A stretch of 64,000 bases of DNA, taken from positions 310,001 through 374,000 of the forward strand of contig NZ_CP037952.1 in NCBI RefSeq assembly GCF_004358345.1, in the 5' to 3' direction. Position 1 is the stretch's first letter. The number at the start of each line of letters is the position of its first letter. Below are positions 20,701 through 64,000 of this stretch, one piece after another. A model generated the notes under the pieces. It was not told where the DNA came from. It saw only the letters and a program-made list of their open reading frames with translations, and made no database searches. A program made the position numbers and the translations under genes. Source of the stretch: Parashewanella spongiae (GTDB taxonomy: Bacteria; Pseudomonadota; Gammaproteobacteria; Enterobacterales; Shewanellaceae).

Positions 20701-20930
20701 AACATGAAGCCTTGTGTGAACACATTGAAATATTGTTTGATCTGACGGCTACGGTATACAACAAAAATATCCACCTTGTCGACAGCGAACTTTTTTCTAG
20801 GCAATGTGCTGAAATAGATATTCTATTTAAATCAACAGGTTTGCCATTTAAACGTTTCTTAAAGTTACTTCAATCTGATGAAAGTAAAGCCATTAGGGCT
20901 TTATATAGGGCGATGAAAAACCGAAAGTGA
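17754..20930 (+). CDS. Large effector-like protein with ankyrin-like N-terminus, 1058 aa
   Basis: Not recognised as a whole. Residues about 20-230 look like degenerate ankyrin repeats (EPLIILAAKSSNLDVFIMLI, GMNVIHHLVLSSH). Residues 290-580 are low-complexity and rich in Ser and Arg, with RRRSVS (296-301), LRSAS (450-454), HRRSTV (496-501) and LRRASV (569-574), plus TEYLP twice (311-315 and 317-321). Residues 600-1058 are mostly helical with apolar glycine-rich stretches near 690-715 and 807-830. There is no N-terminal signal peptide. Ankyrin repeats and RRxS sites are common in proteins delivered into eukaryotic cells, so a secreted effector is my inference. No secretion genes are adjacent. 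Confidence 0.65.
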   Translation: MLTGTAVTGIAPKGDFDKTLEIQQNIIKAVNDEDDSEVGRILALHSEFDVDIFVGDEPLIILAAKSSNLDVFIMLIQKSKKPAACDKFGMNVIHHLVLSSHKHCCYQFSMDAALIEAIKRDVPFTQENNSGDIALIKLFERDFFKYCENSRALALAKISKQELRALKVNGINLINYIDEHYSRFSLQGFECLIKAGFNFSQKTMLEMTLQESLYAQLGLVQNMSVQQQQQFLMNLDGTTFSHFNDFKSYIYDITRLIDKHTLHLDEYEAVNVLPSYSQVTREKANDETKGDRLLNRRRSVSITEMDQLSPTEYLPQTEYLPYKDEPEPERQRKLAQDANPLTWSEQIFSLPPPTKSRWVSTPNLSESGNGSENAYGMATLKLQSFKGAATTFLMKINNKLHGKASKPSLVLVENMEIGGITIFSGHVGEFRTNYLPLLDAHKKEQPHKKLRSASVVKNVPRAQRQYTPVTKAQVEQREEFKEQIVQKMKLSAKFAHRRSTVSPLRPAESAAFRVGSFDSDSTFESVFPTGRSSISSEHSINLPMETCESSACLAVTNTFLKLFDAQKCLRRASVFIPTITTPEMTHELKKQRETAIESARELKSVTGSLTGVGRLKVIADELKGVREHAMSGIANATDDYTEWLQRLDVESHMDCESTTVFHGIELAASVLTQIDSIRQLKVKNIKDIVEPISGLVSGTIGVGAASTEMVAHFSEGSISEAVGDASASLEIIGALKDGMIKIIDLIKALSHSGSLTQSEHFAPTDFKKTQYYLGEGLSYAKKFASISKKFLSAAKKIIDIVGSNSGMIGEAVPGLGLVVNLIHIVEQIQKLTTNVPLYMQLSEMKLRAKVLLNEMDQTTKIIKANGKTNTVELKVFLALSPEIENELNDEIIDPDAIDEVRRYSFVREMKSVNLDRIRNECFSIGLHVSKTCANITELSVVAEEVAIALTVTNAVIEIGKEAVEGGVQKINNLVQNDHSAKHKHEALCEHIEILFDLTATVYNKNIHLVDSELFSRQCAEIDILFKSTGLPFKRFLKLLQSDESKAIRALYRAMKNRK

Positions 20931-33751: not shown

Positions 33752-35032
33752 ATGGCTAACACTCCAGTAAATATCAGAATATTACAGCGAAAACTTTACT
33801 TACGCTCAAAGCTTAACTCGGAGCTACGATTTTACAGCTTGTACGATAAACTCAGTCGCCTAGATATACTCGAAGAAGCCTATCGACGATGCAAAGACAA
33901 TAAAGGCGGAGCAGGAATTGATGGCATCACATTCAGTTATCTAGAGCAGCAAAAGAAAGTCGTTGCGCTGTTAAAAGAAATTCAAACTCAATTACAACAG
34001 AAAAACTATCGACCTAGCCCAGTCAAACGAGTAGAAATACTCAAAGACAACGGCAAAACGCGGAAACTTGGGATCCCGATAATCAGTGACAGAATTGTGC
34101 AAATGGCGATGACAATAGTGATGCAACCCGTCTACGAACCTCATTTACATGAACACAGTTATGGCTACCGTCCATGTCGAAGCGCCCAGCAAGCGGTAAA
34201 AGTCATTGAAATGAGCCTAAAACAAGGCTATCAGCACGTACTCGATGCTGACTTGAGCGCCTATTTCGATACCATCCCGCACGCTAAGTTGATGACAAAA
34301 ATAGAAAGGCGAATAAGCGACAGCAGCTTTCTGAGTTTACTGAAAAGCTTTATCAAAGCGCCCATCAGCATAGAGACGGTCAACGGGAAATGGCGAATAG
34401 AAGCAAGCCGATGTGGCACTCCGCAAGGCGGAGTTATCTCTCCACTACTGGCTAACATCTATCTCAACGATTTCTGTTTGAAAATACACGAAAAAACACC
34501 GTGTAAAATCGTTACCTATGCAGATGATTTTGTTGTACTTCATAAGCAAACCTACACACAAGAGCAACTGGACTGGATAACACAGCAATTAAGTGATGAA
34601 GGTCTGAAGCTAAATCAAAGTAAAACCCACTGTGTGGATATGGGAAAGCTGATGAATGAGTTTGATTTCCTCGGTTTTAACTTTCAACGGATCACAGGCC
34701 TCATCAAAGGCACCAGTTACATCAAGATACAGGCGTCTAAGAAGAGCCAAACAAAGCTGAAAAATAAAATCAGAGACATAGTGAAACACCGAACCTCAAA
34801 TACACTTGGCGTACTGATAAATAAGGTTAATCAAGTTCTGAGGGGATGGAAACACTATTTTGGTGGGATAGGTTATCCCAGAGGTGTATTTTTCAGAATA
34901 AATGGATTTGTAGTAAACCGGTTCTATCGCTGGCATCGTCGCTTAAGTCAACGTCGAAGCAAGTATCTATCACGAGGTGCTTACGAAAAATTACGCCAAG
35001 CTGGTCTTGAGTATTTACCCACGACAAGATGA
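33752..35032 (+). CDS. ltrA: Group II intron reverse transcriptase/maturase, 426 aa
   Basis: RT domain with NKGGAGIDGITF (RT0-1), GKTRKLGIPIISDRIVQMA, YGYRPCRSAQQAV, DADLSAYFDTIPH, GTPQGGVISPLLANIYL and the catalytic VTYADDFVVL. The maturase X region (LRGWKHYFGG) follows. The protein stops soon after with no HNH endonuclease domain, so target entry may rely on single-stranded DNA at replication forks. Intact frame, so possibly active. Confidence 0.95.
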   Translation: MANTPVNIRILQRKLYLRSKLNSELRFYSLYDKLSRLDILEEAYRRCKDNKGGAGIDGITFSYLEQQKKVVALLKEIQTQLQQKNYRPSPVKRVEILKDNGKTRKLGIPIISDRIVQMAMTIVMQPVYEPHLHEHSYGYRPCRSAQQAVKVIEMSLKQGYQHVLDADLSAYFDTIPHAKLMTKIERRISDSSFLSLLKSFIKAPISIETVNGKWRIEASRCGTPQGGVISPLLANIYLNDFCLKIHEKTPCKIVTYADDFVVLHKQTYTQEQLDWITQQLSDEGLKLNQSKTHCVDMGKLMNEFDFLGFNFQRITGLIKGTSYIKIQASKKSQTKLKNKIRDIVKHRTSNTLGVLINKVNQVLRGWKHYFGGIGYPRGVFFRINGFVVNRFYRWHRRLSQRRSKYLSRGAYEKLRQAGLEYLPTTR

Positions 35033-43450: not shown

Positions 43451-43500
43451 TAAGTTAAAGGTGTTTCTGGCTATGTAATTAAACTATCAGAACGAGTCTC

Positions 43501-43590
43501 TCATCCATTTTGTGGACTTCCTTCAAAACGAGTTTCTCCTCCATTTTGTGAACCTCCTTCAGAACGGTTCTCTCCTCCAGCTTGTGGATC
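43501..43590. repeat. 36-bp tandem repeats at the end of the orphan gene
   Basis: About two and a half imperfect 36-bp units (start points near 43502, 43538 and 43574) encode the 12-residue C-terminal repeats. The unit length keeps the frame. Confidence 0.7.
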
Positions 43591-44199
43591 ACCTTCATCA
43601 GCATTCGAAGTATTCTGTGGCGAGTCGGTAGAATCATTTTTGATGAAACTTTGCTGAGTAAGTTTTGGCTGAACAGTCCCTTGCTCTTTATGTTTTTGCA
43701 TTTCACCGTAGAGCAATGGATCAGCTTGTTCCAGCTTTTTAAGATCCTCAGGCGACATCTCCATGAAACAACTCATTCTTTGTGGGTGTGCGATATCAGA
43801 TTTATCGTAAGCTACTTTTTCTGTTAAAACTGGCTGAACCTGCAAGGGCGGGGTTTTAAATTTGGTGTACGCATTTTCTATGGCAGCAGTTTGTTTAGTT
43901 AGGTCACTTTTATTGATAAAGCCAACCACAGAATGATCAGTAAGAAGCCTGAGCTTGATGCGTCCATCTGTCTGTTTTTTACGGGTTGGAGTGAAACTAA
44001 CTTTGTACAGATAAGAATAAGTTCCCAGAGAAATTTTCCCTTTGGTCGATTTTACCGAAATGGAAGTTTGTTTATTTGCTGATTGAGTGGTTGCTGTCAG
44101 CGTATCGAAATGACTTTGCTCAAAACTTGTTAGTGTGCGGGTCTTAGTGTCGTATGTAAGAGGAGCCGTAAGTAAAGCAGTAGGTGATGCAGTAGCCAT
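43501..44199 (-). CDS. Orphan protein with 12-residue C-terminal repeats, 232 aa
   Basis: Not recognised. The N-terminal 100 residues are Thr/Ser-rich with beta-like segments (TSISVKSTKGKISLGTYSYL, GRIKLRLLTDHSVVGFI), the middle is helical (MEMSPEDLKKLEQADPLLYG), and the tail carries about 2.5 copies of a 12-residue unit of the type GGSQNGGETRFE. No signal peptide. It sits between family B copy 2 and family A copy 6 and breaks the usual cyaA/hemC divergence, so it was probably gained with mobile DNA. An effector-type role is possible but unproven. Confidence 0.55.
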   Translation of the reverse strand: MATASPTALLTAPLTYDTKTRTLTSFEQSHFDTLTATTQSANKQTSISVKSTKGKISLGTYSYLYKVSFTPTRKKQTDGRIKLRLLTDHSVVGFINKSDLTKQTAAIENAYTKFKTPPLQVQPVLTEKVAYDKSDIAHPQRMSCFMEMSPEDLKKLEQADPLLYGEMQKHKEQGTVQPKLTQQSFIKNDSTDSPQNTSNADEGDPQAGGENRSEGGSQNGGETRFEGSPQNG

Positions 44200-49219: not shown

Positions 49220-52200
49220 ATGAATAAAATAATAACCACTCAAAATGGTGTGATTACGGCTGCCCCAAATGGGCTAAGCATAAAGGTTAATGGGCAACAG
49301 CAACCTGTAGTATTAGGACAAGAAATTCAGCAAGGCAGCACATTATTTGTTGCAGAAAATGCTAGCTTTGAATTACGTTTGCAAGATGGCACCACACATA
49401 ATCAACAAGATTTTACTCAAACCGAACCATCAGCAGATGATGCTTTTGCTGAAATAGAAGCACTGCAACAACTGATTGAATCTGGTGATGATCCGACCGA
49501 AGAACTGCCTGAAACAGCAGCTGGTGGACAAATAAGTAACCAAGGTGGCATCGACTTTACATCAGTCAGTCGTACTGGTGTTGAAACGCTTGCATCAACA
49601 ACCTTTGATACAAACACGGTTAACATTGCGCCACAAAATCAAGCTATACAACCAGCACAAATTTCAGATGTCATTGAGTTCGATACTCAAACTGTTGATG
49701 ATTCAAACAGTATCTCTGAAGATTCAGTTGCAACTGGAAATGTGCTAGCCAATGACATTTATCTTGATTCATTAATAACGATTGTTACTTATGAAATAAA
49801 TGGTCAAACAATAGCTGCAGGCGACTCCGTCACACTAGAAGGTGGCGAGTTGATCATCAACGCCGATGGCAGCTACATCTTCACGCCGAACGATCACTGG
49901 AATGGCACCACTCCTACTGTTACGTACACCACCAACACTGGCAGCACAGCGTCCCTCAATATCGAAGTGACGCCAGTGGATGATGCGTCAATATTAGAAA
50001 ACGACACCAATACAGTGGCCGAAGACAATATCGCTAGCGGCAATGTACTGAGCAACGACTCCGACGTAGAAAGCGACCTAAGTGTCACGAGCTATGAAGT
50101 CAATGGCAACACAATAGCCGCAGGCGATTCCGTCACACTAGAAGGTGGCGTGTTGATCATCAATGTCGATGGCAGCTACACCTTCACGCCGAACGACCAC
50201 TGGAATGGTACCACTCCTACTGTCACGTACACCACCAATACTGGCAGCACTGCGACCCTCAATATCGAAGTGACGCCAGTGGATGATGCACCGGTTATCA
50301 GCGCCGACAGCGGCAGTGTGACCGAAGGCGAGCAAGCGCCAGTCACAGGCACGCTAACCGGCAGTGATGCGGACAATCCGACCCTGAGTTTTAGTGCACA
50401 AACCATTAATAACGACTATGGCCAGTTCACGGTCAACAGCGATGGCAGTTGGAGCTTTACGCTCGCCGACAATGCTACGGTAAATGGGTTAACTGAAGGC
50501 GAAGAGCACATAGAAGTGTTTACGGTGACCTTAAGTGATGACAGCACGACGACGGTCACCATCACCATTACAGGTACCGATGATGCACCGGTTATCAGCG
50601 CCGACAGCGGCAGTGTGACCGAAGGCGAGCAAGCGCCAGTCACAGGCACGCTAACCGGCAGTGATGCGGACAATCCGACCCTGAGTTTTAGTGCACAAAC
50701 CATTAATAACGACTATGGCCAGTTCACGGTCAACAGCGATGGCAGTTGGAGCTTTACGCTCGCCGACAATGCTACGGTAAATGGGTTAACTGAAGGCGAA
50801 GAGCACATAGAAGTGTTTACGGTGACCTTAAGTGATGACAGCACGACGACGGTCACCATCACCATTACAGGTACCGATGATGCACCGGTTATCAGCGCCG
50901 ACAGCGGCAGTGTGACCGAAGGCGAGCAAGCGCCAGTCACAGGCACGCTAACCGGCAGTGATGCGGACAATCCGACCCTGAGTTTTAGTGCACAAACCAT
51001 TAATAACGACTATGGCCAGTTCACGGTCAACAGCGATGGCAGTTGGAGCTTTACGCTCGCCGACAATGCTACGGTAAATGGGTTAACTGAAGGCGAAGAG
51101 CACATAGAAGTGTTTACGGTGACCTTAAGTGATGACAGCACGACGACGGTCACCATCACCATTACAGGTACCGATGATGCACCGGTTATCAGCGCCGACA
51201 GCGGCAGTGTGACCGAAGGCGAGCAAGCGCCAGTCACAGGCACGCTAACCGGCAGTGATGCGGACAATCCGACCCTGAGTTTTAGTGCACAAACCATTAA
51301 TAACGACTATGGCCAGTTCACGGTCAACAGCGATGGCAGTTGGAGCTTTACGCTCGCCGACAATGCTACGGTAAATGGGTTAACTGAAGGCGAAGAGCAC
51401 ATAGAAGTGTTTACGGTGACCTTAAGTGATGACAGCACGACGACGGTCACCATCACCATTACAGGTACCGATGATGCACCGGTTATCAGCGCCGACAGCG
51501 GCAGTGTGACCGAAGGCGAGCAAGCGCCAGTCACAGGCACGCTAACCGGCAGTGATGCGGACAATCCGACCCTGAGTTTTAGTGCACAAACCATTAATAA
51601 CGACTATGGCCAGTTCACGGTCAACAGCGATGGCAGTTGGAGCTTTACGCTCGCCGACAATGCTACGGTAAATGGGTTAACTGAAGGCGAAGAGCACATA
51701 GAAGTGTTTACGGTGACCTTAAGTGATGACAGCACGACGACGGTCACCATCACCATTACAGGTACCGATGATGCACCGGTTATCAGCGCCGACGGCGGCA
51801 GTGTGACCGAAGGCGAGCAAGCGCCAGTCACAGGCACGCTAACCGGCAGTGATGCGGACAATCCGACCCTGAGTTTTAGTGCACAAACCATTAATAACGA
51901 CTATGGCCAGTTCACGGTCAACAGCGATGGCAGTTGGAGCTTTACGCTCGCCGACAATGCTACGGTAAATGGGTTAACTGAAGGCGAAGAGCACATAGAA
52001 GTGTTTACGGTGACCTTAAGTGATGACAGCACGACGACGGTCACCATCACCATTACAGGTACCGATGATGCACCGGTTATCAGCGCCGACAGCGGCAGTG
52101 TGACCGAAGGCGAGCAAGCGCCAGTCACAGGCACGCTAACCGGCAGTGATGCGGACAATCCGACCCTGAGTTTTAGTGCACAAACCATTAATAACGACTA

Positions 52201-55200
52201 TGGCCAGTTCACGGTCAACAGCGATGGCAGTTGGAGCTTTACGCTCGCCGACAATGCTACGGTAAATGGGTTAACTGAAGGCGAAGAGCACATAGAAGTG
52301 TTTACGGTGACCTTAAGTGATGACAGCACGACGACGGTCACCATCACCATTACAGGTACCGATGATGCACCGGTTATCAGCGCCGACAGCGGCAGTGTGA
52401 CCGAAGGCGAGCAAGCGCCAGTCACAGGCACGCTAACCGGCAGTGATGCGGACAATCCGACCCTGAGTTTTAGTGCACAAACCATTAATAACGACTATGG
52501 CCAGTTCACGGTCAACAGCGATGGCAGTTGGAGCTTTACGCTCGCCGACAATGCTACGGTAAATGGGTTAACTGAAGGCGAAGAGCACATAGAAGTGTTT
52601 ACGGTGACCTTAAGTGATGACAGCACGACGACGGTCACCATCACCATTACAGGTACCGATGATGCACCGGTTATCAGCGCCGACAGCGGCAGTGTGACCG
52701 AAGGCGAGCAAGCGCCAGTCACAGGCACGCTAACCGGCAGTGATGCGGACAATCCGACCCTGAGTTTTAGTGCACAAACCATTAATAACGACTATGGCCA
52801 GTTCACGGTCAACAGCGATGGCAGTTGGAGCTTTACGCTCGCCGACAATGCTACGGTAAATGGGTTAACTGAAGGCGAAGAGCACATAGAAGTGTTTACG
52901 GTGACCTTAAGTGATGACAGCACGACGACGGTCACCATCACCATTACAGGTACCGATGATGCACCGGTTATCAGCGCCGACAGCGGCAGTGTGACCGAAG
53001 GCGAGCAAGCGCCAGTCACAGGCACGCTAACCGGCAGTGATGCGGACAATCCGACCCTGAGTTTTAGTGCACAAACCATTAATAACGACTATGGCCAGTT
53101 CACGGTCAACAGCGATGGCAGTTGGAGCTTTACGCTCGCCGACAATGCTACGGTAAATGGGTTAACTGAAGGCGAAGAGCACATAGAAGTGTTTACGGTG
53201 ACCTTAAGTGATGACAGCACGACGACGGTCACCATCACCATTACAGGTACCGATGATGCACCGGTTATCAGCGCCGACAGCGGCAGTGTGACCGAAGGCG
53301 AGCAAGCGCCAGTCACAGGCACGCTAACCGGCAGTGATGCGGACAATCCGACCCTGAGTTTTAGTGCACAAACCATTAATAACGACTATGGCCAGTTCAC
53401 GGTCAACAGCGATGGCAGTTGGAGCTTTACGCTCGCCGACAATGCTACGGTAAATGGGTTAACTGAAGGCGAAGAGCACATAGAAGTGTTTACGGTGACC
53501 TTAAGTGATGACAGCACGACGACGGTCACCATCACCATTACAGGTACCGATGATGCACCGGTTATCAGCGCCGACAGCGGCAGTGTGACCGAAGGCGAGC
53601 AAGCGCCAGTCACAGGCACGCTAACCGGCAGTGATGCGGACAATCCGACCCTGAGTTTTAGTGCACAAACCATTAATAACGACTATGGCCAGTTCACGGT
53701 CAACAGCGATGGCAGTTGGAGCTTTACGCTCGCCGACAATGCTACGGTAAATGGGTTAACTGAAGGCGAAGAGCACATAGAAGTGTTTACGGTGACCTTA
53801 AGTGATGACAGCACGACGACGGTCACCATCACCATTACAGGTACCGATGATGCACCGGTTATCAGCGCCGACAGCGGCAGTGTGACCGAAGGCGAGCAAG
53901 CGCCAGTCACAGGCACGCTAACCGGCAGTGATGCGGACAATCCGACCCTGAGTTTTAGTGCACAAACCATTAATAACGACTATGGCCAGTTCACGGTCAA
54001 CAGCGATGGCAGTTGGAGCTTTACGCTCGCCGACAATGCTACGGTAAATGGGTTAACTGAAGGCGAAGAGCACATAGAAGTGTTTACGGTGACCTTAAGT
54101 GATGACAGCACGACGACGGTCACCATCACCATTACAGGTACCGATGATGCACCGGTTATCAGCGCCGACAGCGGCAGTGTGACCGAAGGCGAGCAAGCGC
54201 CAGTCACAGGCACGCTAACCGGCAGTGATGCGGACAATCCGACCCTGAGTTTTAGTGCACAAACCATTAATAACGACTATGGCCAGTTCACGGTCAACAG
54301 CGATGGCAGTTGGAGCTTTACGCTCGCCGACAATGCTACGGTAAATGGGTTAACTGAAGGCGAAGAGCACATAGAAGTGTTTACGGTGACCTTAAGTGAT
54401 GACAGCACGACGACGGTCACCATCACCATTACAGGTACCGATGATGCACCGGTTATCAGCGCCGACAGCGGCAGTGTGACCGAAGGCGAGCAAGCGCCAG
54501 TCACAGGCACGCTAACCGGCAGTGATGCGGACAATCCGACCCTGAGTTTTAGTGCACAAACCATTAATAACGACTATGGCCAGTTCACGGTCAACAGCGA
54601 TGGCAGTTGGAGCTTTACGCTCGCCGACAATGCTACGGTAAATGGGTTAACTGAAGGCGAAGAGCACATAGAAGTGTTTACGGTGACCTTAAGTGATGAC
54701 AGCACGACGACGGTCACCATCACCATTACAGGTACCGATGATGCACCGGTTATCAGCGCCGACAGCGGCAGTGTGACCGAAGGCGAGCAAGCGCCAGTCA
54801 CAGGCACGCTAACCGGCAGTGATGCGGACAATCCGACCCTGAGTTTTAGTGCACAAACCATTAATAACGACTATGGCCAGTTCACGGTCAACAGCGATGG
54901 CAGTTGGAGCTTTACGCTCGCCGACAATGCTACGGTAAATGGGTTAACTGAAGGCGAAGAGCACATAGAAGTGTTTACGGTGACCTTAAGTGATGACAGC
55001 ACGACGACGGTCACCATCACCATTACAGGTACCGATGATGCACCGGTTATCAGCGCCGACAGCGGCAGTGTGACCGAAGGCGAGCAAGCGCCAGTCACAG
55101 GCACGCTAACCGGCAGTGATGCGGACAATCCGACCCTGAGTTTTAGTGCACAAACCATTAATAACGACTATGGCCAGTTCACGGTCAACAGCGATGGCAG

Positions 55201-58200
55201 TTGGAGCTTTACGCTCGCCGACAATGCTACGGTAAATGGGTTAACTGAAGGCGAAGAGCACATAGAAGTGTTTACGGTGACCTTAAGTGATGACAGCACG
55301 ACGACGGTCACCATCACCATTACAGGTACCGATGATGCACCGGTTATCAGCGCCGACAGCGGCAGTGTGACCGAAGGCGAGCAAGCGCCAGTCACAGGCA
55401 CGCTAACCGGCAGTGATGCGGACAATCCGACCCTGAGTTTTAGTGCACAAACCATTAATAACGACTATGGCCAGTTCACGGTCAACAGCGATGGCAGTTG
55501 GAGCTTTACGCTCGCCGACAATGCTACGGTAAATGGGTTAACTGAAGGCGAAGAGCACATAGAAGTGTTTACGGTGACCTTAAGTGATGACAGCACGACG
55601 ACGGTCACCATCACCATTACAGGTACCGATGATGCACCGGTTATCAGCGCCGACAGCGGCAGTGTGACCGAAGGCGAGCAAGCGCCAGTCACAGGCACGC
55701 TAACCGGCAGTGATGCGGACAATCCGACCCTGAGTTTTAGTGCACAAACCATTAATAACGACTATGGCCAGTTCACGGTCAACAGCGATGGCAGTTGGAG
55801 CTTTACGCTCGCCGACAATGCTACGGTAAATGGGTTAACTGAAGGCGAAGAGCACATAGAAGTGTTTACGGTGACCTTAAGTGATGACAGCACGACGACG
55901 GTCACCATCACCATTACAGGTACCGATGATGCACCGGTTATCAGCGCCGACAGCGGCAGTGTGACCGAAGGCGAGCAAGCGCCAGTCACAGGCACGCTAA
56001 CCGGCAGTGATGCGGACAATCCGACCCTGAGTTTTAGTGCACAAACCATTAATAACGACTATGGCCAGTTCACGGTCAACAGCGATGGCAGTTGGAGCTT
56101 TACGCTCGCCGACAATGCTACGGTAAATGGGTTAACTGAAGGCGAAGAGCACATAGAAGTGTTTACGGTGACCTTAAGTGATGACAGCACGACGACGGTC
56201 ACCATCACCATTACAGGTACCGATGATGCACCGGTTATCAGCGCCGACAGCGGCAGTGTGACCGAAGGCGAGCAAGCGCCAGTCACAGGCACGCTAACCG
56301 GCAGTGATGCGGACAATCCGACCCTGAGTTTTAGTGCACAAACCATTAATAACGACTATGGCCAGTTCACGGTCAACAGCGATGGCAGTTGGAGCTTTAC
56401 GCTCGCCGACAATGCTACGGTAAATGGGTTAACTGAAGGCGAAGAGCACATAGAAGTGTTTACGGTGACCTTAAGTGATGACAGCACGACGACGGTCACC
56501 ATCACCATTACAGGTACCGATGATGCACCGGTTATCAGCGCCGACAGCGGCAGTGTGACCGAAGGCGAGCAAGCGCCAGTCACAGGCACGCTAACCGGCA
56601 GTGATGCGGACAATCCGACCCTGAGTTTTAGTGCACAAACCATTAATAACGACTATGGCCAGTTCACGGTCAACAGCGATGGCAGTTGGAGCTTTACGCT
56701 CGCCGACAATGCTACGGTAAATGGGTTAACTGAAGGCGAAGAGCACATAGAAGTGTTTACGGTGACCTTAAGTGATGACAGCACGACGACGGTCACCATC
56801 ACCATTACAGGTACCGATGATGCACCGGTTATCAGCGCCGACAGCGGCAGTGTGACCGAAGGCGAGCAAGCGCCAGTCACAGGCACGCTAACCGGCAGTG
56901 ATGCGGACAATCCGACCCTGAGTTTTAGTGCACAAACCATTAATAACGACTATGGCCAGTTCACGGTCAACAGCGATGGCAGTTGGAGCTTTACGCTCGC
57001 CGACAATGCTACGGTAAATGGGTTAACTGAAGGCGAAGAGCACATAGAAGTGTTTACGGTGACCTTAAGTGATGACAGCACGACGACGGTCACCATCACC
57101 ATTACAGGTACCGATGATGCACCGGTTATCAGCGCCGACAGCGGCAGTGTGACCGAAGGCGAGCAAGCGCCAGTCACAGGCACGCTAACCGGCAGTGATG
57201 CGGACAATCCGACCCTGAGTTTTAGTGCACAAACCATTAATAACGACTATGGCCAGTTCACGGTCAACAGCGATGGCAGTTGGAGCTTTACGCTCGCCGA
57301 CAATGCTACGGTAAATGGGTTAACTGAAGGCGAAGAGCACATAGAAGTGTTTACGGTGACCTTAAGTGATGACAGCACGACGACGGTCACCATCACCATT
57401 ACAGGTACCGATGATGCACCGGTTATCAGCGCCGACAGCGGCAGTGTGACCGAAGGCGAGCAAGCGCCAGTCACAGGCACGCTAACCGGCAGTGATGCGG
57501 ACAATCCGACCCTGAGTTTTAGTGCACAAACCATTAATAACGACTATGGCCAGTTCACGGTCAACAGCGATGGCAGTTGGAGCTTTACGCTCGCCGACAA
57601 TGCTACGGTAAATGGGTTAACTGAAGGCGAAGAGCACATAGAAGTGTTTACGGTGACCTTAAGTGATGACAGCACGACGACGGTCACCATCACCATTACA
57701 GGTACCGATGATGCACCGGTTATCAGCGCCGACAGCGGCAGTGTGACCGAAGGCGAGCAAGCGCCAGTCACAGGCACGCTAACCGGCAGTGATGCGGACA
57801 ATCCGACCCTGAGTTTTAGTGCACAAACCATTAATAACGACTATGGCCAGTTCACGGTCAACAGCGATGGCAGTTGGAGCTTTACGCTCGCCGACAATGC
57901 TACGGTAAATGGGTTAACTGAAGGCGAAGAGCACATAGAAGTGTTTACGGTGACCTTAAGTGATGACAGCACGACGACGGTCACCATCACCATTACAGGT
58001 ACCGATGATGCACCGGTTATCAGCGCCGACAGCGGCAGTGTGACCGAAGGCGAGCAAGCGCCAGTCACAGGCACGCTAACCGGCAGTGATGCGGACAATC
58101 CGACCCTGAGTTTTAGTGCACAAACCATTAATAACGACTATGGCCAGTTCACGGTCAACAGCGATGGCAGTTGGAGCTTTACGCTCGCCGACAATGCTAC

Positions 58201-61200
58201 GGTAAATGGGTTAACTGAAGGCGAAGAGCACATAGAAGTGTTTACGGTGACCTTAAGTGATGACAGCACGACGACGGTCACCATCACCATTACAGGTACC
58301 GATGATGCACCGGTTATCAGCGCCGACAGCGGCAGTGTGACCGAAGGCGAGCAAGCGCCAGTCACAGGCACGCTAACCGGCAGTGATGCGGACAATCCGA
58401 CCCTGAGTTTTAGTGCACAAACCATTAATAACGACTATGGCCAGTTCACGGTCAACAGCGATGGCAGTTGGAGCTTTACGCTCGCCGACAATGCTACGGT
58501 AAATGGGTTAACTGAAGGCGAAGAGCACATAGAAGTGTTTACGGTGACCTTAAGTGATGACAGCACGACGACGGTCACCATCACCATTACAGGTACCGAT
58601 GATGCACCGGTTATCAGCGCCGACAGCGGCAGTGTGACCGAAGGCGAGCAAGCGCCAGTCACAGGCACGCTAACCGGCAGTGATGCGGACAATCCGACCC
58701 TGAGTTTTAGTGCACAAACCATTAATAACGACTATGGCCAGTTCACGGTCAACAGCGATGGCAGTTGGAGCTTTACGCTCGCCGACAATGCTACGGTAAA
58801 TGGGTTAACTGAAGGCGAAGAGCACATAGAAGTGTTTACGGTGACCTTAAGTGATGACAGCACGACGACGGTCACCATCACCATTACAGGTACCGATGAT
58901 GCACCGGTTATCAGCGCCGACAGCGGCAGTGTGACCGAAGGCGAGCAAGCGCCAGTCACAGGCACGCTAACCGGCAGTGATGCGGACAATCCGACCCTGA
59001 GTTTTAGTGCACAAACCATTAATAACGACTATGGCCAGTTCACGGTCAACAGCGATGGCAGTTGGAGCTTTACGCTCGCCGACAATGCTACGGTAAATGG
59101 GTTAACTGAAGGCGAAGAGCACATAGAAGTGTTTACGGTGACCTTAAGTGATGACAGCACGACGACGGTCACCATCACCATTACAGGTACCGATGATGCA
59201 CCGGTTATCAGCGCCGACAGCGGCAGTGTGACCGAAGGCGAGCAAGCGCCAGTCACAGGCACGCTAACCGGCAGTGATGCGGACAATCCGACCCTGAGTT
59301 TTAGTGCACAAACCATTAATAACGACTATGGCCAGTTCACGGTCAACAGCGATGGCAGTTGGAGCTTTACGCTCGCCGACAATGCTACGGTAAATGGGTT
59401 AACTGAAGGCGAAGAGCACATAGAAGTGTTTACGGTGACCTTAAGTGATGACAGCACGACGACGGTCACCATCACCATTACAGGTACCGATGATGCACCG
59501 GTTATCAGCGCCGACAGCGGCAGTGTGACCGAAGGCGAGCAAGCGCCAGTCACAGGCACGCTAACCGGCAGTGATGCGGACAATCCGACCCTGAGTTTTA
59601 GTGCACAAACCATTAATAACGACTATGGCCAGTTCACGGTCAACAGCGATGGCAGTTGGAGCTTTACGCTCGCCGACAATGCTACGGTAAATGGGTTAAC
59701 TGAAGGCGAAGAGCACATAGAAGTGTTTACGGTGACCTTAAGTGATGACAGCACGACGGTCACCATCACCATTACAGGTACCGATGATGCACCGGTTATC
59801 AGCGCCGACAGCGGCAGTGTGACCGAAGGCGAGCAAGCGCCAGTCACAGGCACGCTAACCGGCAGTGATGCGGACAATCCGACCCTGAGTTTTAGTGCAC
59901 AAACCATTAATAACGACTATGGCCAGTTCACGGTCAACAGCGATGGCAGTTGGAGCTTTACGCTCGCCGACAATGCTACGGTAAATGGGTTAACTGAAGG
60001 CGAAGAGCACATAGAAGTGTTTACGGTGACCTTAAGTGATGACAGCACGACGACGGTCACCATCACCATTACAGGTACCGATGATGCACCGGTTATCAGC
60101 GCCGACAGCGGCAGTGTGACCGAAGGCGAGCAAGCGCCAGTCACAGGCACGCTAACCGGCAGTGATGCGGACAATCCGACCCTGAGTTTTAGTGCACAAA
60201 CCATTAATAACGACTATGGCCAGTTCACGGTCAACAGCGATGGCAGTTGGAGCTTTACGCTCGCCGACAATGCTACGGTAAATGGGTTAACTGAAGGCGA
60301 AGAGCACATAGAAGTGTTTACGGTGACCTTAAGTGATGACAGCACGACGACGGTCACCATCACCATTACAGGTACCGATGATGCACCGGTTATCAGCGCC
60401 GACAGCGGCAGTGTGACCGAAGGCGAGCAAGCGCCAGTCACAGGCACGCTAACCGGCAGTGATGCGGACAATCCGACCCTGAGTTTTAGTGCACAAACCA
60501 TTAATAACGACTATGGCCAGTTCACGGTCAACAGCGATGGCAGTTGGAGCTTTACGCTCGCCGACAATGCTACGGTAAATGGGTTAACTGAAGGCGAAGA
60601 GCACATAGAAGTGTTTACGGTGACCTTAAGTGATGACAGCACGACGACGGTCACCATCACCATTACAGGTACCGATGATGCACCGGTTATCAGCGCCGAC
60701 AGCGGCAGTGTGACCGAAGGCGAGCAAGCGCCAGTCACAGGCACGCTAACCGGCAGTGATGCGGACAATCCGACCCTGAGTTTTAGTGCACAAACCATTA
60801 ATAACGACTATGGCCAGTTCACGGTCAACAGCGATGGCAGTTGGAGCTTTACGCTCGCCGACAATGCTACGGTAAATGGGTTAACTGAAGGCGAAGAGCA
60901 CATAGAAGTGTTTACGGTGACCTTAAGTGATGACAGCACGACGACGGTCACCATCACCATTACAGGTACCGATGATGCACCGGTTATCAGCGCCGACAGC
61001 GGCAGTGTGACCGAAGGCGAGCAAGCGCCAGTCACAGGCACGCTAACCGGCAGTGATGCGGACAATCCGACCCTGAGTTTTAGTGCACAAACCATTAATA
61101 ACGACTATGGCCAGTTCACGGTCAACAGCGATGGCAGTTGGAGCTTTACGCTCGCCGACAATGCTACGGTAAATGGGTTAACTGAAGGCGAAGAGCACAT

Positions 61201-64000
61201 AGAAGTGTTTACGGTGACCTTAAGTGATGACAGCACGACGACGGTCACCATCACCATTACAGGTACCGATGATGCACCGGTTATCAGCGCCGACAGCGGC
61301 AGTGTGACCGAAGGCGAGCAAGCGCCAGTCACAGGCACGCTAACCGGCAGTGATGCGGACAATCCGACCCTGAGTTTTAGTGCACAAACCATTAATAACG
61401 ACTATGGCCAGTTCACGGTCAACAGCGATGGCAGTTGGAGCTTTACGCTCGCCGACAATGCTACGGTAAATGGGTTAACTGAAGGCGAAGAGCACATAGA
61501 AGTGTTTACGGTGACCTTAAGTGATGACAGCACGACGACGGTCACCATCACCATTACAGGTACCGATGATGCACCGGTTATCAGCGCCGACAGCGGCAGT
61601 GTGACCGAAGGCGAGCAAGCGCCAGTCACAGGCACGCTAACCGGCAGTGATGCGGACAATCCGACCCTGAGTTTTAGTGCACAAACCATTAATAACGACT
61701 ATGGCCAGTTCACGGTCAACAGCGATGGCAGTTGGAGCTTTACGCTCGCCGACAATGCTACGGTAAATGGGTTAACTGAAGGCGAAGAGCACATAGAAGT
61801 GTTTACGGTGACCTTAAGTGATGACAGCACGACGACGGTCACCATCACCATTACAGGTACCGATGATGCACCGGTTATCAGCGCCGACAGCGGCAGTGTG
61901 ACCGAAGGCGAGCAAGCGCCAGTCACAGGCACGCTAACCGGCAGTGATGCGGACAATCCGACCCTGAGTTTTAGTGCACAAACCATTAATAACGACTATG
62001 GCCAGTTCACGGTCAACAGCGATGGCAGTTGGAGCTTTACGCTCGCCGACAATGCTACGGTAAATGGGTTAACTGAAGGCGAAGAGCACATAGAAGTGTT
62101 TACGGTGACCTTAAGTGATGACAGCACGACGACGGTCACCATCACCATTACAGGTACCGATGATGCACCGGTTATCAGCGCCGACAGCGGCAGTGTGACC
62201 GAAGGCGAGCAAGCGCCAGTCACAGGCACGCTAACCGGCAGTGATGCGGACAATCCGACCCTGAGTTTTAGTGCACAAACCATTAATAACGACTATGGCC
62301 AGTTCACGGTCAACAGCGATGGCAGTTGGAGCTTTACGCTCGCCGACAATGCTACGGTAAATGGGTTAACTGAAGGCGAAGAGCACATAGAAGTGTTTAC
62401 GGTGACCTTAAGTGATGACAGCACGACGACGGTCACCATCACCATCAATGGCACCAACGATGCGCCACATGCCGAAGCTGACACTGTTGAAATGAAAGAG
62501 TCAGACATTGCCTACAACACAGCTTATGTTGTCGATAGTCGTGGAAATTTAGCTTTAGTTAACTTAAGCACAGGCGCTCATACTAAAATTGCTGATACTG
62601 GGACGATATTTACTGACGTAGCAATATCACAATCAGGTGAGTTATTCGGCATCAACTTTAATAGCCTATACACAATTGATAAACTGAGCGGAGAAGTGAC
62701 ACCTATTAATGAGGAACTTGACGTACGGGCTAATGCGCTGACCTTCTCAGATGATGGTCGACTCTATGCTGCCGCTGGTGATGCGATTTATGAATTAGAT
62801 CCTACAGATGGCAGCGTTCTACATGCCTATGACAACCTTGGCGTCTTTTCAGCCGGCGACTTAGCCTTTCATAACGGTAAAATGTATTGGACCACATATG
62901 ATGGCGCACTATATGAAGTCGTAATAAATGAAACAACTGGGAAAGCGACGGTAAATGAAGTCATTAGTGACTTAGGTCTAACCACCGGCAATTATGGCCT
63001 AGTCTCTGGACATGATGGCAATCTCTATGTGTTTTCAGGTAACACTATTCTGCTTGTCGATCCTATCAATGGCACATCAGAAGTGGTGGTTATCTATGAT
63101 GGAATTGGCTCGGTGTTCGGAACCACCATTCCAGCGGCGGTAAATAATGAAGCCACAGGTAATGTACTTGATAATGACACCGACATTGACAATAACCATA
63201 ACTCACTTACGGTTACAAGGGTTGAATTCAATGGCGTGACGTACAATGTGGGTGATGAAATTAGCGGTACATATGGTTTCTTACAACTCCAGTCGAATGG
63301 CGAATTCACCTATCGTTTAGATGAATCACGAGAAGTTACTCAAGATCTTGCAGAAGGAGAACTTGCCTACGATGTGTTTACTTATACCGTTTCAGACGGG
63401 AGTGGTGGCAGCGATACGGCGACATTGACAATTAAAATCACAGGTACCGATGCAGATGCAGATACAGGTTCCCCTGCCAGTGAACCGACTCTATCACTTG
63501 AGGCTGGCTCACTGTTAGCTTCGTTAAACTTTGAAGGTGTGGTGACCAATAGAAGTATTTCTAACGATCAAAATGTTCAAGTATCCGTTTTGAATGATAT
63601 GTTTACAGGAAATTGGGGCTCTAACAATCAATATGGAACAGTGGAGATTGGTAAAGCGTCTACTTATTTAAATGAGGATGCTTCTAAAGACCATGGAGAT
63701 GTGCTTGAGCTTGAAAATCGCGAAGGAGACAACACCTTATTTTTGGATGTCGTCCTAGACGCCAGTAAATTTTATTCACTCAATTTTGAAGCCGCTGCCC
63801 GCCAGGATACAACTGCTAGTAATTCAAACTTTACTGTAAAGCTGCAAAAGGTTAATGATGATGGAGAACTGACTGGAGAGGTTATTACTCTGAGGGATAT
63901 TAACTTTTCTAGTGTAAATAAATGGCTAGAGATTCAAGAATTTTTTAAAGTAGAAGCGTCCGGTAAATACCGTATTACCTTTGAAGGTGATGATGCTGAT
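49220..64000 (+). CDS. Giant LapA-like type I-secreted adhesin, at least 4927 aa (partial)
   Basis: Open from the ATG at 49220 to the window edge without a stop. Residues 1-62 form a LapA-type retention module (ITAAPNGLSIKVNG, VVLGQEIQQGSTLFV), followed by T99-A-A-G102 (ELPETAAGGQ), the motif cut by LapG protease. Two cadherin/Ig-like repeats (about 155-354) precede 41 VCBS repeats (355-4412). Then come a beta-propeller-like segment (about 4430-4625), another cadherin/VCBS-like domain (about 4637-4745) and a jelly-roll-like region (from about 4760). The RTX type I signal must lie beyond the window. The protein should span the outer membrane pore (LapE/TolC-like) and be released by LapG when cyclic di-GMP falls; lapD, lapG and the exporter are not in view. 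Confidence 0.88.
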   Translation, partial: MNKIITTQNGVITAAPNGLSIKVNGQQQPVVLGQEIQQGSTLFVAENASFELRLQDGTTHNQQDFTQTEPSADDAFAEIEALQQLIESGDDPTEELPETAAGGQISNQGGIDFTSVSRTGVETLASTTFDTNTVNIAPQNQAIQPAQISDVIEFDTQTVDDSNSISEDSVATGNVLANDIYLDSLITIVTYEINGQTIAAGDSVTLEGGELIINADGSYIFTPNDHWNGTTPTVTYTTNTGSTASLNIEVTPVDDASILENDTNTVAEDNIASGNVLSNDSDVESDLSVTSYEVNGNTIAAGDSVTLEGGVLIINVDGSYTFTPNDHWNGTTPTVTYTTNTGSTATLNIEVTPVDDAPVISADSGSVTEGEQAPVTGTLTGSDADNPTLSFSAQTINNDYGQFTVNSDGSWSFTLADNATVNGLTEGEEHIEVFTVTLSDDSTTTVTITITGTDDAPVISADSGSVTEGEQAPVTGTLTGSDADNPTLSFSAQTINNDYGQFTVNSDGSWSFTLADNATVNGLTEGEEHIEVFTVTLSDDSTTTVTITITGTDDAPVISADSGSVTEGEQAPVTGTLTGSDADNPTLSFSAQTINNDYGQFTVNSDGSWSFTLADNATVNGLTEGEEHIEVFTVTLSDDSTTTVTITITGTDDAPVISADSGSVTEGEQAPVTGTLTGSDADNPTLSFSAQTINNDYGQFTVNSDGSWSFTLADNATVNGLTEGEEHIEVFTVTLSDDSTTTVTITITGTDDAPVISADSGSVTEGEQAPVTGTLTGSDADNPTLSFSAQTINNDYGQFTVNSDGSWSFTLADNATVNGLTEGEEHIEVFTVTLSDDSTTTVTITITGTDDAPVISADGGSVTEGEQAPVTGTLTGSDADNPTLSFSAQTINNDYGQFTVNSDGSWSFTLADNATVNGLTEGEEHIEVFTVTLSDDSTTTVTITITGTDDAPVISADSGSVTEGEQAPVTGTLTGSDADNPTLSFSAQTINNDYGQFTVNSDGSWSFTLADNATVNGLTEGEEHIEVFTVTLSDDSTTTVTITITGTDDAPVISADSGSVTEGEQAPVTGTLTGSDADNPTLSFSAQTINNDYGQFTVNSDGSWSFTLADNATVNGLTEGEEHIEVFTVTLSDDSTTTVTITITGTDDAPVISADSGSVTEGEQAPVTGTLTGSDADNPTLSFSAQTINNDYGQFTVNSDGSWSFTLADNATVNGLTEGEEHIEVFTVTLSDDSTTTVTITITGTDDAPVISADSGSVTEGEQAPVTGTLTGSDADNPTLSFSAQTINNDYGQFTVNSDGSWSFTLADNATVNGLTEGEEHIEVFTVTLSDDSTTTVTITITGTDDAPVISADSGSVTEGEQAPVTGTLTGSDADNPTLSFSAQTINNDYGQFTVNSDGSWSFTLADNATVNGLTEGEEHIEVFTVTLSDDSTTTVTITITGTDDAPVISADSGSVTEGEQAPVTGTLTGSDADNPTLSFSAQTINNDYGQFTVNSDGSWSFTLADNATVNGLTEGEEHIEVFTVTLSDDSTTTVTITITGTDDAPVISADSGSVTEGEQAPVTGTLTGSDADNPTLSFSAQTINNDYGQFTVNSDGSWSFTLADNATVNGLTEGEEHIEVFTVTLSDDSTTTVTITITGTDDAPVISADSGSVTEGEQAPVTGTLTGSDADNPTLSFSAQTINNDYGQFTVNSDGSWSFTLADNATVNGLTEGEEHIEVFTVTLSDDSTTTVTITITGTDDAPVISADSGSVTEGEQAPVTGTLTGSDADNPTLSFSAQTINNDYGQFTVNSDGSWSFTLADNATVNGLTEGEEHIEVFTVTLSDDSTTTVTITITGTDDAPVISADSGSVTEGEQAPVTGTLTGSDADNPTLSFSAQTINNDYGQFTVNSDGSWSFTLADNATVNGLTEGEEHIEVFTVTLSDDSTTTVTITITGTDDAPVISADSGSVTEGEQAPVTGTLTGSDADNPTLSFSAQTINNDYGQFTVNSDGSWSFTLADNATVNGLTEGEEHIEVFTVTLSDDSTTTVTITITGTDDAPVISADSGSVTEGEQAPVTGTLTGSDADNPTLSFSAQTINNDYGQFTVNSDGSWSFTLADNATVNGLTEGEEHIEVFTVTLSDDSTTTVTITITGTDDAPVISADSGSVTEGEQAPVTGTLTGSDADNPTLSFSAQTINNDYGQFTVNSDGSWSFTLADNATVNGLTEGEEHIEVFTVTLSDDSTTTVTITITGTDDAPVISADSGSVTEGEQAPVTGTLTGSDADNPTLSFSAQTINNDYGQFTVNSDGSWSFTLADNATVNGLTEGEEHIEVFTVTLSDDSTTTVTITITGTDDAPVISADSGSVTEGEQAPVTGTLTGSDADNPTLSFSAQTINNDYGQFTVNSDGSWSFTLADNATVNGLTEGEEHIEVFTVTLSDDSTTTVTITITGTDDAPVISADSGSVTEGEQAPVTGTLTGSDADNPTLSFSAQTINNDYGQFTVNSDGSWSFTLADNATVNGLTEGEEHIEVFTVTLSDDSTTTVTITITGTDDAPVISADSGSVTEGEQAPVTGTLTGSDADNPTLSFSAQTINNDYGQFTVNSDGSWSFTLADNATVNGLTEGEEHIEVFTVTLSDDSTTTVTITITGTDDAPVISADSGSVTEGEQAPVTGTLTGSDADNPTLSFSAQTINNDYGQFTVNSDGSWSFTLADNATVNGLTEGEEHIEVFTVTLSDDSTTTVTITITGTDDAPVISADSGSVTEGEQAPVTGTLTGSDADNPTLSFSAQTINNDYGQFTVNSDGSWSFTLADNATVNGLTEGEEHIEVFTVTLSDDSTTTVTITITGTDDAPVISADSGSVTEGEQAPVTGTLTGSDADNPTLSFSAQTINNDYGQFTVNSDGSWSFTLADNATVNGLTEGEEHIEVFTVTLSDDSTTTVTITITGTDDAPVISADSGSVTEGEQAPVTGTLTGSDADNPTLSFSAQTINNDYGQFTVNSDGSWSFTLADNATVNGLTEGEEHIEVFTVTLSDDSTTTVTITITGTDDAPVISADSGSVTEGEQAPVTGTLTGSDADNPTLSFSAQTINNDYGQFTVNSDGSWSFTLADNATVNGLTEGEEHIEVFTVTLSDDSTTTVTITITGTDDAPVISADSGSVTEGEQAPVTGTLTGSDADNPTLSFSAQTINNDYGQFTVNSDGSWSFTLADNATVNGLTEGEEHIEVFTVTLSDDSTTTVTITITGTDDAPVISADSGSVTEGEQAPVTGTLTGSDADNPTLSFSAQTINNDYGQFTVNSDGSWSFTLADNATVNGLTEGEEHIEVFTVTLSDDSTTTVTITITGTDDAPVISADSGSVTEGEQAPVTGTLTGSDADNPTLSFSAQTINNDYGQFTVNSDGSWSFTLADNATVNGLTEGEEHIEVFTVTLSDDSTTTVTITITGTDDAPVISADSGSVTEGEQAPVTGTLTGSDADNPTLSFSAQTINNDYGQFTVNSDGSWSFTLADNATVNGLTEGEEHIEVFTVTLSDDSTTVTITITGTDDAPVISADSGSVTEGEQAPVTGTLTGSDADNPTLSFSAQTINNDYGQFTVNSDGSWSFTLADNATVNGLTEGEEHIEVFTVTLSDDSTTTVTITITGTDDAPVISADSGSVTEGEQAPVTGTLTGSDADNPTLSFSAQTINNDYGQFTVNSDGSWSFTLADNATVNGLTEGEEHIEVFTVTLSDDSTTTVTITITGTDDAPVISADSGSVTEGEQAPVTGTLTGSDADNPTLSFSAQTINNDYGQFTVNSDGSWSFTLADNATVNGLTEGEEHIEVFTVTLSDDSTTTVTITITGTDDAPVISADSGSVTEGEQAPVTGTLTGSDADNPTLSFSAQTINNDYGQFTVNSDGSWSFTLADNATVNGLTEGEEHIEVFTVTLSDDSTTTVTITITGTDDAPVISADSGSVTEGEQAPVTGTLTGSDADNPTLSFSAQTINNDYGQFTVNSDGSWSFTLADNATVNGLTEGEEHIEVFTVTLSDDSTTTVTITITGTDDAPVISADSGSVTEGEQAPVTGTLTGSDADNPTLSFSAQTINNDYGQFTVNSDGSWSFTLADNATVNGLTEGEEHIEVFTVTLSDDSTTTVTITITGTDDAPVISADSGSVTEGEQAPVTGTLTGSDADNPTLSFSAQTINNDYGQFTVNSDGSWSFTLADNATVNGLTEGEEHIEVFTVTLSDDSTTTVTITITGTDDAPVISADSGSVTEGEQAPVTGTLTGSDADNPTLSFSAQTINNDYGQFTVNSDGSWSFTLADNATVNGLTEGEEHIEVFTVTLSDDSTTTVTITITGTDDAPVISADSGSVTEGEQAPVTGTLTGSDADNPTLSFSAQTINNDYGQFTVNSDGSWSFTLADNATVNGLTEGEEHIEVFTVTLSDDSTTTVTITINGTNDAPHAEADTVEMKESDIAYNTAYVVDSRGNLALVNLSTGAHTKIADTGTIFTDVAISQSGELFGINFNSLYTIDKLSGEVTPINEELDVRANALTFSDDGRLYAAAGDAIYELDPTDGSVLHAYDNLGVFSAGDLAFHNGKMYWTTYDGALYEVVINETTGKATVNEVISDLGLTTGNYGLVSGHDGNLYVFSGNTILLVDPINGTSEVVVIYDGIGSVFGTTIPAAVNNEATGNVLDNDTDIDNNHNSLTVTRVEFNGVTYNVGDEISGTYGFLQLQSNGEFTYRLDESREVTQDLAEGELAYDVFTYTVSDGSGGSDTATLTIKITGTDADADTGSPASEPTLSLEAGSLLASLNFEGVVTNRSISNDQNVQVSVLNDMFTGNWGSNNQYGTVEIGKASTYLNEDASKDHGDVLELENREGDNTLFLDVVLDASKFYSLNFEAAARQDTTASNSNFTVKLQKVNDDGELTGEVITLRDINFSSVNKWLEIQEFFKVEASGKYRITFEGDDAD
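49694..50281 (+). repeat. Two Ig/cadherin-like repeats at the adhesin N-terminus
   Basis: Two units of about 285 and 303 bp encode near-parallel domains (GNVLANDIYLDSL and GNVLSNDSDVESDL, then DSVTLEGG, YIFTPNDHWNGTTPTVTYTT). They are more diverged from each other than the VCBS units after them. Confidence 0.8.
50282..62455 (+). repeat. Array of 41 tandem 297-bp VCBS units
   Basis: Each unit is 99 residues, opening DDAPVISADSGSVTEGEQAP and ending TVTITITGT, a VCBS/Ig-like domain with calcium-ligand-type acidic loops. The span is 12,174 bp: 40 units of 297 bp and one of 294 bp. Differences I can see are A to G at 51794 (unit 6, Ser to Gly), a 3-bp loss of one Thr codon near 59755 (unit 32), and a diverged end of the last unit (INGTNDAP). 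Such identity implies recent expansion or ongoing gene conversion. The copy number in the true genome depends on correct long-read assembly. Confidence 0.9.

Follow-up and report, generated by a model that had tools for sequence, protein, structure and literature searches.

The window, by which we mean the whole stretch of 64,000 nucleotides that was analyzed, ends within a giant adhesin gene on the + strand (gene A), whose reading frame starts at position 49220, is still open at 64000 and runs on in the adjoining genome stretch to 65233 on the window scale. The whole gene (genome positions 359220–375233) encodes 5337 amino acids with a calculated mass of 553 kDa and a pI of 4.05, whereby 354 residues lie ahead of and 925 behind a central repeat array. 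Judged from its domain matches, gene A is a LapA/BpfA-type RTX adhesin gene. It starts with a predicted N-terminal retention module (49220..49618, + strand; NF033682 with 62.1 bits at a cut-off of 50, residues 21–133), followed by diverged domains of the cadherin/tandem-95 type (49619..50281, + strand; PF17892 and NF012211 stretches), which lead into the array (50282..62455, + strand). The array presents a long tandem Ig-like extender, to which TIGR01965, PF17803, and PF17963 match, as do a structure model and a PDB entry. The C-terminal part starts at 62456 on the same strand, reaches the window end at 64000 and continues to 65233; it contains Big_9, RTX repeats (PF00353, 28.1 over a cut-off of 23), and a type I secretion target (TIGR03661, 43.9 over 17.6). 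The repeats had been assigned to an adhesin in an earlier note made from the letters of the window, and this assignment holds, with the retention-module, VCBS, RTX, and secretion-target models all above their cut-offs.

Gene A is adjoined downstream by a second LapA-like gene, gene B (65588–76459 on the window scale, 3623 amino acids), which carries arrays of 8 × 294 bp and 13 × 324 bp; no RTX model matched in the C-terminal piece of gene B that was scanned. The sequence TAAGG is present in genes A and B, and near the retention module we take it to be a candidate for the kind of site that is cleaved by LapG. Over the 1002 bp behind the arrays, genes A and B share 90% DNA identity, which suggests exchange or duplication between them; in gene A, the Big_9, RTX, and secretion-target regions come after this stretch. 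The order of the locus is gene A, gene B, an LssB-type ABC gene, HlyD, TolC, an OmpA-like lipoprotein (whose frame was called by eye), a C93 protease, and a LapD-type GGDEF-EAL gene. The exporter genes linked to the adhesins match TIGR03375 (LssB-type ABC, 921.5 over 693.1), TIGR01843 (480.5 over 208.65), and TIGR01844 (325.6 over 225.15). The putative LapG-like C93 cysteine protease matches PF06035 (62 over 27) and the putative LapD-type gene PF16448 (125.4 over 25), whereas the stricter NCBIfam equivalog models scored 215.4 bits for LapG (cut-off 320) and 283.4 bits for LapD (cut-off 1020), so that neither cut-off was reached. On the 5′ side of gene A lie an adenylate cyclase gene (reverse strand), hemC, hemD, hemX, and hemY. 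Since similar-sized frames precede the adhesin gene of the congener G004, the locus appears to be syntenic with it. This G004 adhesin gene (G004:C1:355497-371952) harbors 42 units of 324 bp with a different cadherin-like sequence, so that the two genes are alike in position and unit number and differ in extender type. Elsewhere, the window contains a group II intron-type reverse transcriptase/maturase gene (33752–35032; PF00078, PF08388), a 1058-aa frame without a Pfam match at 1e-5 (17754–20930), and a 36-bp repeat (43487–43597; 3.1 copies, 82% matches), which overlaps the end of a reverse-strand frame (43501–44199) that likewise has no Pfam match at 1e-5.

Unit-by-unit alignment of the array, which is of the VCBS (Big_9/Cadherin_4) type with a 99-aa unit, yielded 41 unit starts, a copy number that rests on a single-contig assembly. 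The first unit starts at 50282 and the last at 62159, and the spacing between starts is 297 bp in 39 of the 40 intervals and 294 bp in one. Tandem Repeats Finder independently reported a period of 297, 41.0 copies, and 99% matches, with an array end (62445) short of the junction, and TIGR01965 matched the array with 204.4 bits at a cut-off of 15.5. Such a 41-unit array is not a product of chance. Among units 1–40, 38 copies are identical letter by letter. The two others are unit 6 (51767..52063, + strand), where A28G changes AGC to GGC and thus Ser to Gly, a non-silent difference, and unit 32 (59489..59782, + strand), which measures 294 bp and lacks one ACG (3 bp) from a triplet run. Unit 41 (62159..62455, + strand) is the junction unit; with changes at unit positions 288, 290, 291, and 294, it departs from the array unit solely within its last 10 bases and leads into the peptide NGTNDAPH, a junction that is the same in gene B. 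When all units were aligned, no silent difference was found among units 1–40. The earlier note had thus described the array correctly, namely as 41 almost identical 297-bp VCBS units at 50282..62455, with one substitution, one 3-bp deletion, and the closing junction as the only differences and with fixed silent sites.

A structure model of two units, built on an alignment of 11 sequences, reached a mean pLDDT of 95.2. Its best PDB match is the AhLap tetra-tandemer 6xi1 (E 1.9e-17, 41% identity), which was also the sole match of a PDB sequence search; a Bap fragment and cadherins followed with far weaker E-values. AhLap from Aeromonas hydrophila (PDB 6XI1) is therewith the solved structure nearest to the gene A unit in both sequence and fold. 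Its units are given as 85–95% identical at the protein level (PMC7493085), whereas those of gene A are identical in DNA. AhLap-type sandwiches are described in the same source as arranged in tandem, with calcium in the linkers (PMC7493085). The residues DD at the unit start are invariant in 11 of 11 aligned sequences, which is compatible with the predicted calcium binding. By analogy, we infer that the array serves as a stiff extender.

Several known adhesins resemble gene A. MpAFP/MpIBP from Marinomonas primoryensis is presented, like gene A, as an RTX adhesin with an Ig-like calcium-dependent extender (PMC3492233; PMC4083281). Its region II is reported to comprise about 120 units of 312 bp, which are identical in DNA except for the last one (PMC3492233), and its authors proposed unequal recombination for this array (PMC3492233; PMC4083281). 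The identity of the gene A units in DNA is an MpIBP-like trait; the two differ in that gene A has 41 units and not about 120, and in that the closest solved relative of its unit is AhLap. No ice-binding model occurred among the matches of gene A in general Pfam/NCBIfam domain scans. The bpfA cluster of Shewanella oneidensis, as outlined in PMC4523816, combines an adhesin with homologues of the exporter, the OmpA-like protein, LapG, and LapD, as is the case here, and the BpfA repeats of about 300 bp are similar to the gene A unit. Unlike in BpfA, there are two giant adhesin genes in tandem in the present locus, the array is larger and the units are nearly perfectly identical. Ilm from Yersinia ruckeri is described as having over 20 Ig-like units; they measure about 300 bp, are identical in DNA, as in gene A, and vary slightly in number among strains (PMC6868369). 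The array of gene A is a further case of an established adhesin design and ordinary for its family.

The family survey comprised 46 LapA-like frames of at least 2000 aa in genomes of at most three contigs, among the matches listed, together with four frames from G000 and G004, i.e., 50 frames in total. Two of these, both from G090, have no array, and the remaining 48 genes hold 78 arrays. Among these listed matches, the mean unit identity is at least 99% in 18 of the 78 arrays, the one of gene A included, and below 0.88 in 16 of 78. Near-identical examples are G071 (39 of 40 units), G080 (23 of 23), G038 (24 of 25), and G005 (32 of 40). The supposition that natural adhesin repeats usually diverge at synonymous sites, from which the earlier note had started, is not borne out by these arrays nor by the published MpAFP and Ilm. 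The idea that the gene A array is exceptional was likewise rejected, as homogeneous arrays are common among the family frames surveyed. Copy numbers of 42, 41, 40, and 40 occur in four species. A conserved array length is not claimed, since copy numbers among the listed arrays vary from 3 to 109, and assemblies can resolve uniform arrays only up to a certain length. One 318-bp unit type is present in 40 copies in G071, 29 in G086, and 18 in G111.

In seven comparisons, a unit type common to two species allowed silent differences within arrays to be set against those between species. In three of the seven, the silent differences within both arrays were clearly smaller than those between species; in the other four, this applied to one partner only. 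For G037/G047, the silent difference is 0.29 between species and 0.020 and 0.004 within the arrays, with 0.24 for the N-terminal flank; for G020/G080 it is 0.08 versus 0.014 and 0.000, and for G071/G085 0.31 versus 0.060 and 0.072. In G071/G086, a difference of 0.24 between species stands against 0.003 within G071 and 0.127 within G086. The heterogeneous partners show within-array silent differences of 0.127 and 0.172 (G086), 0.252 (G070), and 0.135 (G054). Uniformity within together with difference between species favors ongoing homogenization in the family. In six of the seven comparisons, the two species are further apart in the N-terminal flank than in the units (e.g., 0.62 versus 0.24), thus a transfer of units between species is also possible. 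A variant with 20 changes recurs four units apart in G004, and gene B, in its 324-bp array, has one variant pattern that is common to units 3 and 9, whereby units at lags of 6 and 3 differ least. The dispersed G004 variants and the lags in gene B favor continuing unequal exchange or conversion in multi-unit steps. For gene A, a steady-state estimate based on its one substitution gives a unit replacement of about 2.3e5 times the per-site mutation rate, with a range of 4e4 to 9e6.

For gene A itself, it is quite possible, if not what we expect, that a single recent amplification turned one unit into 41 copies, in which only two mutations have occurred since, and that no continual homogenization was needed. 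The variants of gene A are private to units 6 and 32, none being common to several units. In addition, no orthologous array was found in the congeners (the syntenic gene of G004, G002, G003); the G004 gene lacks the unit type, and in G002 and G003 the unit family is represented by a few copies with 50–56% identity. The array of gene A could therefore be a young expansion. Yet the near-identical arrays in many species among the matches listed argue against a single event of this kind as the explanation, and arrays that are uniform within a species but different between species, in both partners in three of seven comparisons, would be poorly explained by repeated coincident amplifications. Of the two processes that had been offered for the fixed silent sites, very recent amplification or continual homogenization, the latter is thus indicated in the family, whereas the former keeps its place for the array of gene A.

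The silent sites of the arrays carry a second signal. As a measure we used the GC content at fourfold sites (GC4) of the array minus that of the flank of the same gene, amino-acid matched. Among the matches listed, 75 of the 78 arrays are more GC-rich at fourfold sites than their flanks (median +0.275), with 0.78 versus 0.41 in gene A and 0.86 versus 0.30 in G004. When only the largest array per genome was considered, the GC4 excess was present in 37 of 37 (median +0.33); C gained over T in all 37, and G over A in 36 of them. From other gammaproteobacterial families, 26 frames, mostly the longest among the matches listed, were included; seven of them have no array and the others provide 22 arrays. 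The excess was found in 21 of these 22 arrays, a count that includes a gene with masked bases (G374) and is 20 of 21 without it. With a flank GC4 below 0.55, 13 of 13 arrays show it (12 of 12 without G374); with a higher flank GC4, 8 of 9 do, and the median excess amounts to just 0.036, again among the matches listed. Codons were also aligned to distant single-copy domains of the same gene (20–51% identity) for 40 arrays with at least six copies, 94% matches, and 10 comparable codons, G374 being left out; here, the array was more GC-rich in 40 of 40 cases (964 versus 266 sites). Few-copy diverged units of the gene A unit family show little or no shift (0.33 versus 0.44 in the flank in V. ulleungensis, 0.42 versus 0.34 in G003), and the excess hardly seems to be inherent in the VCBS domain itself. 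GC-rich exceptions are two alike units on contig 76 of Vibrio qd031 (0.71 versus 0.40) and a lone unit in G002 (0.73 versus 0.35), and nine units of 88% identity on contig 12 of Vibrio qd031 are without an excess over a short flank (0.71 versus 0.70). Among the titles listed in our literature searches, there was no paper on the silent-site composition of bacterial tandem adhesin arrays, which is not proof of absence. Two further frames may be mentioned. In G347:C1, from outside the family, a frame of 11,969 aa includes 44 units of 675 bp, to which Tandem Repeats Finder assigns 100% matches, i.e., about 30 kb of uniform sequence. In G115:C1, a frame of 16,322 aa contains diverged units of 330 bp, about 109 in number and about 75% alike (GC4 0.79 in the array, 0.37 in the flank).

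Mutation is probably not the source of the GC shift. Within the 28 most uniform arrays, singletons that lead from G:C to A:T outnumber those in the reverse direction (34 to 13, all sites), and over all 52 arrays the observed fourfold GC of 0.716 exceeds the 0.535 implied by singletons (CI of the gap 0.07–0.31), although in the 28 most uniform arrays alone the same gap is not significant, its interval including zero. Variants shared by at least two units are less AT-directed than singletons, with an odds ratio of 1.47 over all sites of the 52 arrays (95% CI 1.07–2.01, bootstrap) and of 1.76 at fourfold sites (CI 1.10–2.86); the silent-only test in the 28 most uniform arrays was not significant (OR 1.78, CI 0.57–6.35). 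These frequency tests, for which arrays of at least eight units were used with edge units removed and bootstrapping replaced Fisher tests that ignore linkage (p 0.03, 0.04, 0.001), lean to a bias in what spreads.

Gene conversion that favors G:C during homogenization would be such a bias, and as the cause of the GC-ending silent codons we regard it as doubtful but worth a serious hearing. It would fit the GC4 excess in the family, in the largest arrays per genome and in the other families alike, as well as the weaker AT direction of shared variants compared to singletons (OR 1.47). Moreover, the excess tracks unit identity over all arrays (rho 0.49 and 0.42; 0.78 in the other families), array composition tracks host composition (rho 0.50), and the direction of the shift is opposite to the ribosomal codon preference in fourfold boxes. 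On the other hand, the identity link becomes weak when each gene (rho 0.25, p 0.09) or each genome (rho 0.23, p 0.17) contributes a single array, small uniform arrays of three to six copies are GC-rich too, and pooled polarized substitutions, which are few and come from overlapping species triples, amount to 13 of 64 for W>S and 23 of 167 for S>W, i.e., a GC equilibrium of about 0.60 that is below most observed values. The silent-only test and the fourfold gap in the 28 most uniform arrays likewise speak against it. Of the two-fold A/G codons, those for Glu (18 of 35 genes), Lys (9 of 16), and TTR-Leu (16 of 27) stay where they are, whereas Gln (24 of 34) and most C/T codons, such as those for Asn (34 of 36) and Asp (32 of 36), do shift; His (10 of 14) is not significant. 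Since Glu, Lys, and TTR-Leu stay put, GC-biased conversion would fit only part of the pattern, and in its pure form it was not accepted.

The shift could also, though just as doubtfully, reflect selection on translation, magnified by the copying of each silent change into about 40 units. Outside the fourfold boxes, the shift from flank to array correlates with that from flank to ribosomal genes (r 0.84), and C-ending codons, CTG, and CCG become more frequent, with GAA and AAA retained. However, pooled codon counts weigh long arrays many times, the shift depends only weakly on copy number (rho 0.25, p 0.10; arrays of at least 95% identity), and the fourfold boxes show no correlation with the ribosomal shift (r 0.08). 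In eight genomes, genes of the S10/spc region have a GC4 of 0.23–0.36, compared to 0.64–0.91 in the arrays; flagellins have a GC4 of 0.22–0.38. One long rpo frame per genome gave 0.24–0.52; a porin comparison was left out, as several of the picked frames were not porins. With ribosomal and flagellin GC4 this low, a translational optimum was rejected as the sole cause for the fourfold boxes.

It is rather unlikely that the array units stem from GC-rich donors and are still unameliorated, or that GC-rich seeds amplify preferentially. The gene A unit is as near to Vibrio and Aeromonas units (65–67%) as to any from 60 relatives, where its best match reaches 59% over the full length and 65% over 78 residues; the G:C to A:T direction of the singletons in the most uniform arrays and the GC-rich lone unit of G002 would also agree with such an origin. 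The excess, however, is seen across many unit types and other families, and the few and diverged units of V. ulleungensis have a low GC4. That array composition follows the host speaks against a simple import from GC-rich donors. Finally, an array length of 41 as an assembly product, with the real array being longer or shorter, is improbable: although such repeats are reported to defeat assembly (PMC6868369), bpfA of S. oneidensis is stated to be about 2.6 kb short in its genome record (PMC4523816), and the homologous gene in G003 appears to run off a contig end, the present genome is a single contig, the markers in units 6 and 32 have 5, 25, and 9 other units before, between, and after them, unlike a simple collapse, 40-unit arrays are resolved in other few-contig genomes, and a collapse would not create identity among units.

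Overall, we consider gene A to encode a LapA/BpfA-type surface adhesin whose array is kept identical by intragenic recombination, with the same process or codon selection driving the silent sites toward C- or G-ending codons, and give this proposal as a whole a probability of roughly three in four. By homology, the adhesin would stay anchored in the outer membrane through its N-terminal module until it is cleaved by LapG, a step controlled by LapD and c-di-GMP. The 41 identical acidic Ig-like VCBS domains would form a long calcium-stiffened extender, as deduced from the solved AhLap homologue, and would carry the C-terminal part off the cell. Intragenic homologous recombination, i.e., unequal exchange and conversion between units, would replace units far faster than mutation separates them, a mechanism that we infer from the pattern in the relatives, and unit number should vary as a consequence of such exchange. 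The same recombination, or selection acting on a codon with some 40 copies, would drive the silent sites toward C- and G-ending codons. Quite tentatively, array recombination itself might be G:C-biased and override the AU-ending preference of the host in fourfold boxes, while an additional codon constraint would hold Glu, Lys, and TTR-Leu back.

A GC bias of bacterial gene conversion is disputed; Lassalle 2015 argued in favor by comparing recombining with non-recombining genes (PMC4450053), and Bobay and Ochman 2017 are cited for the opposite view (in PMC8223754). Since homogenized arrays lie beside non-array sequence of the same gene and the effect is large (median 0.33 GC4), they bring an internal control, which makes the question directly testable. 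If the bias exists, LapA-type arrays would provide natural accumulation experiments on the GC bias of bacterial gene conversion. Were selection the cause, repeat number would multiply selection on a silent site. The silent-site signature of the surveyed arrays, which is invisible from one window alone, matters more than the single array of gene A and is worth following up.
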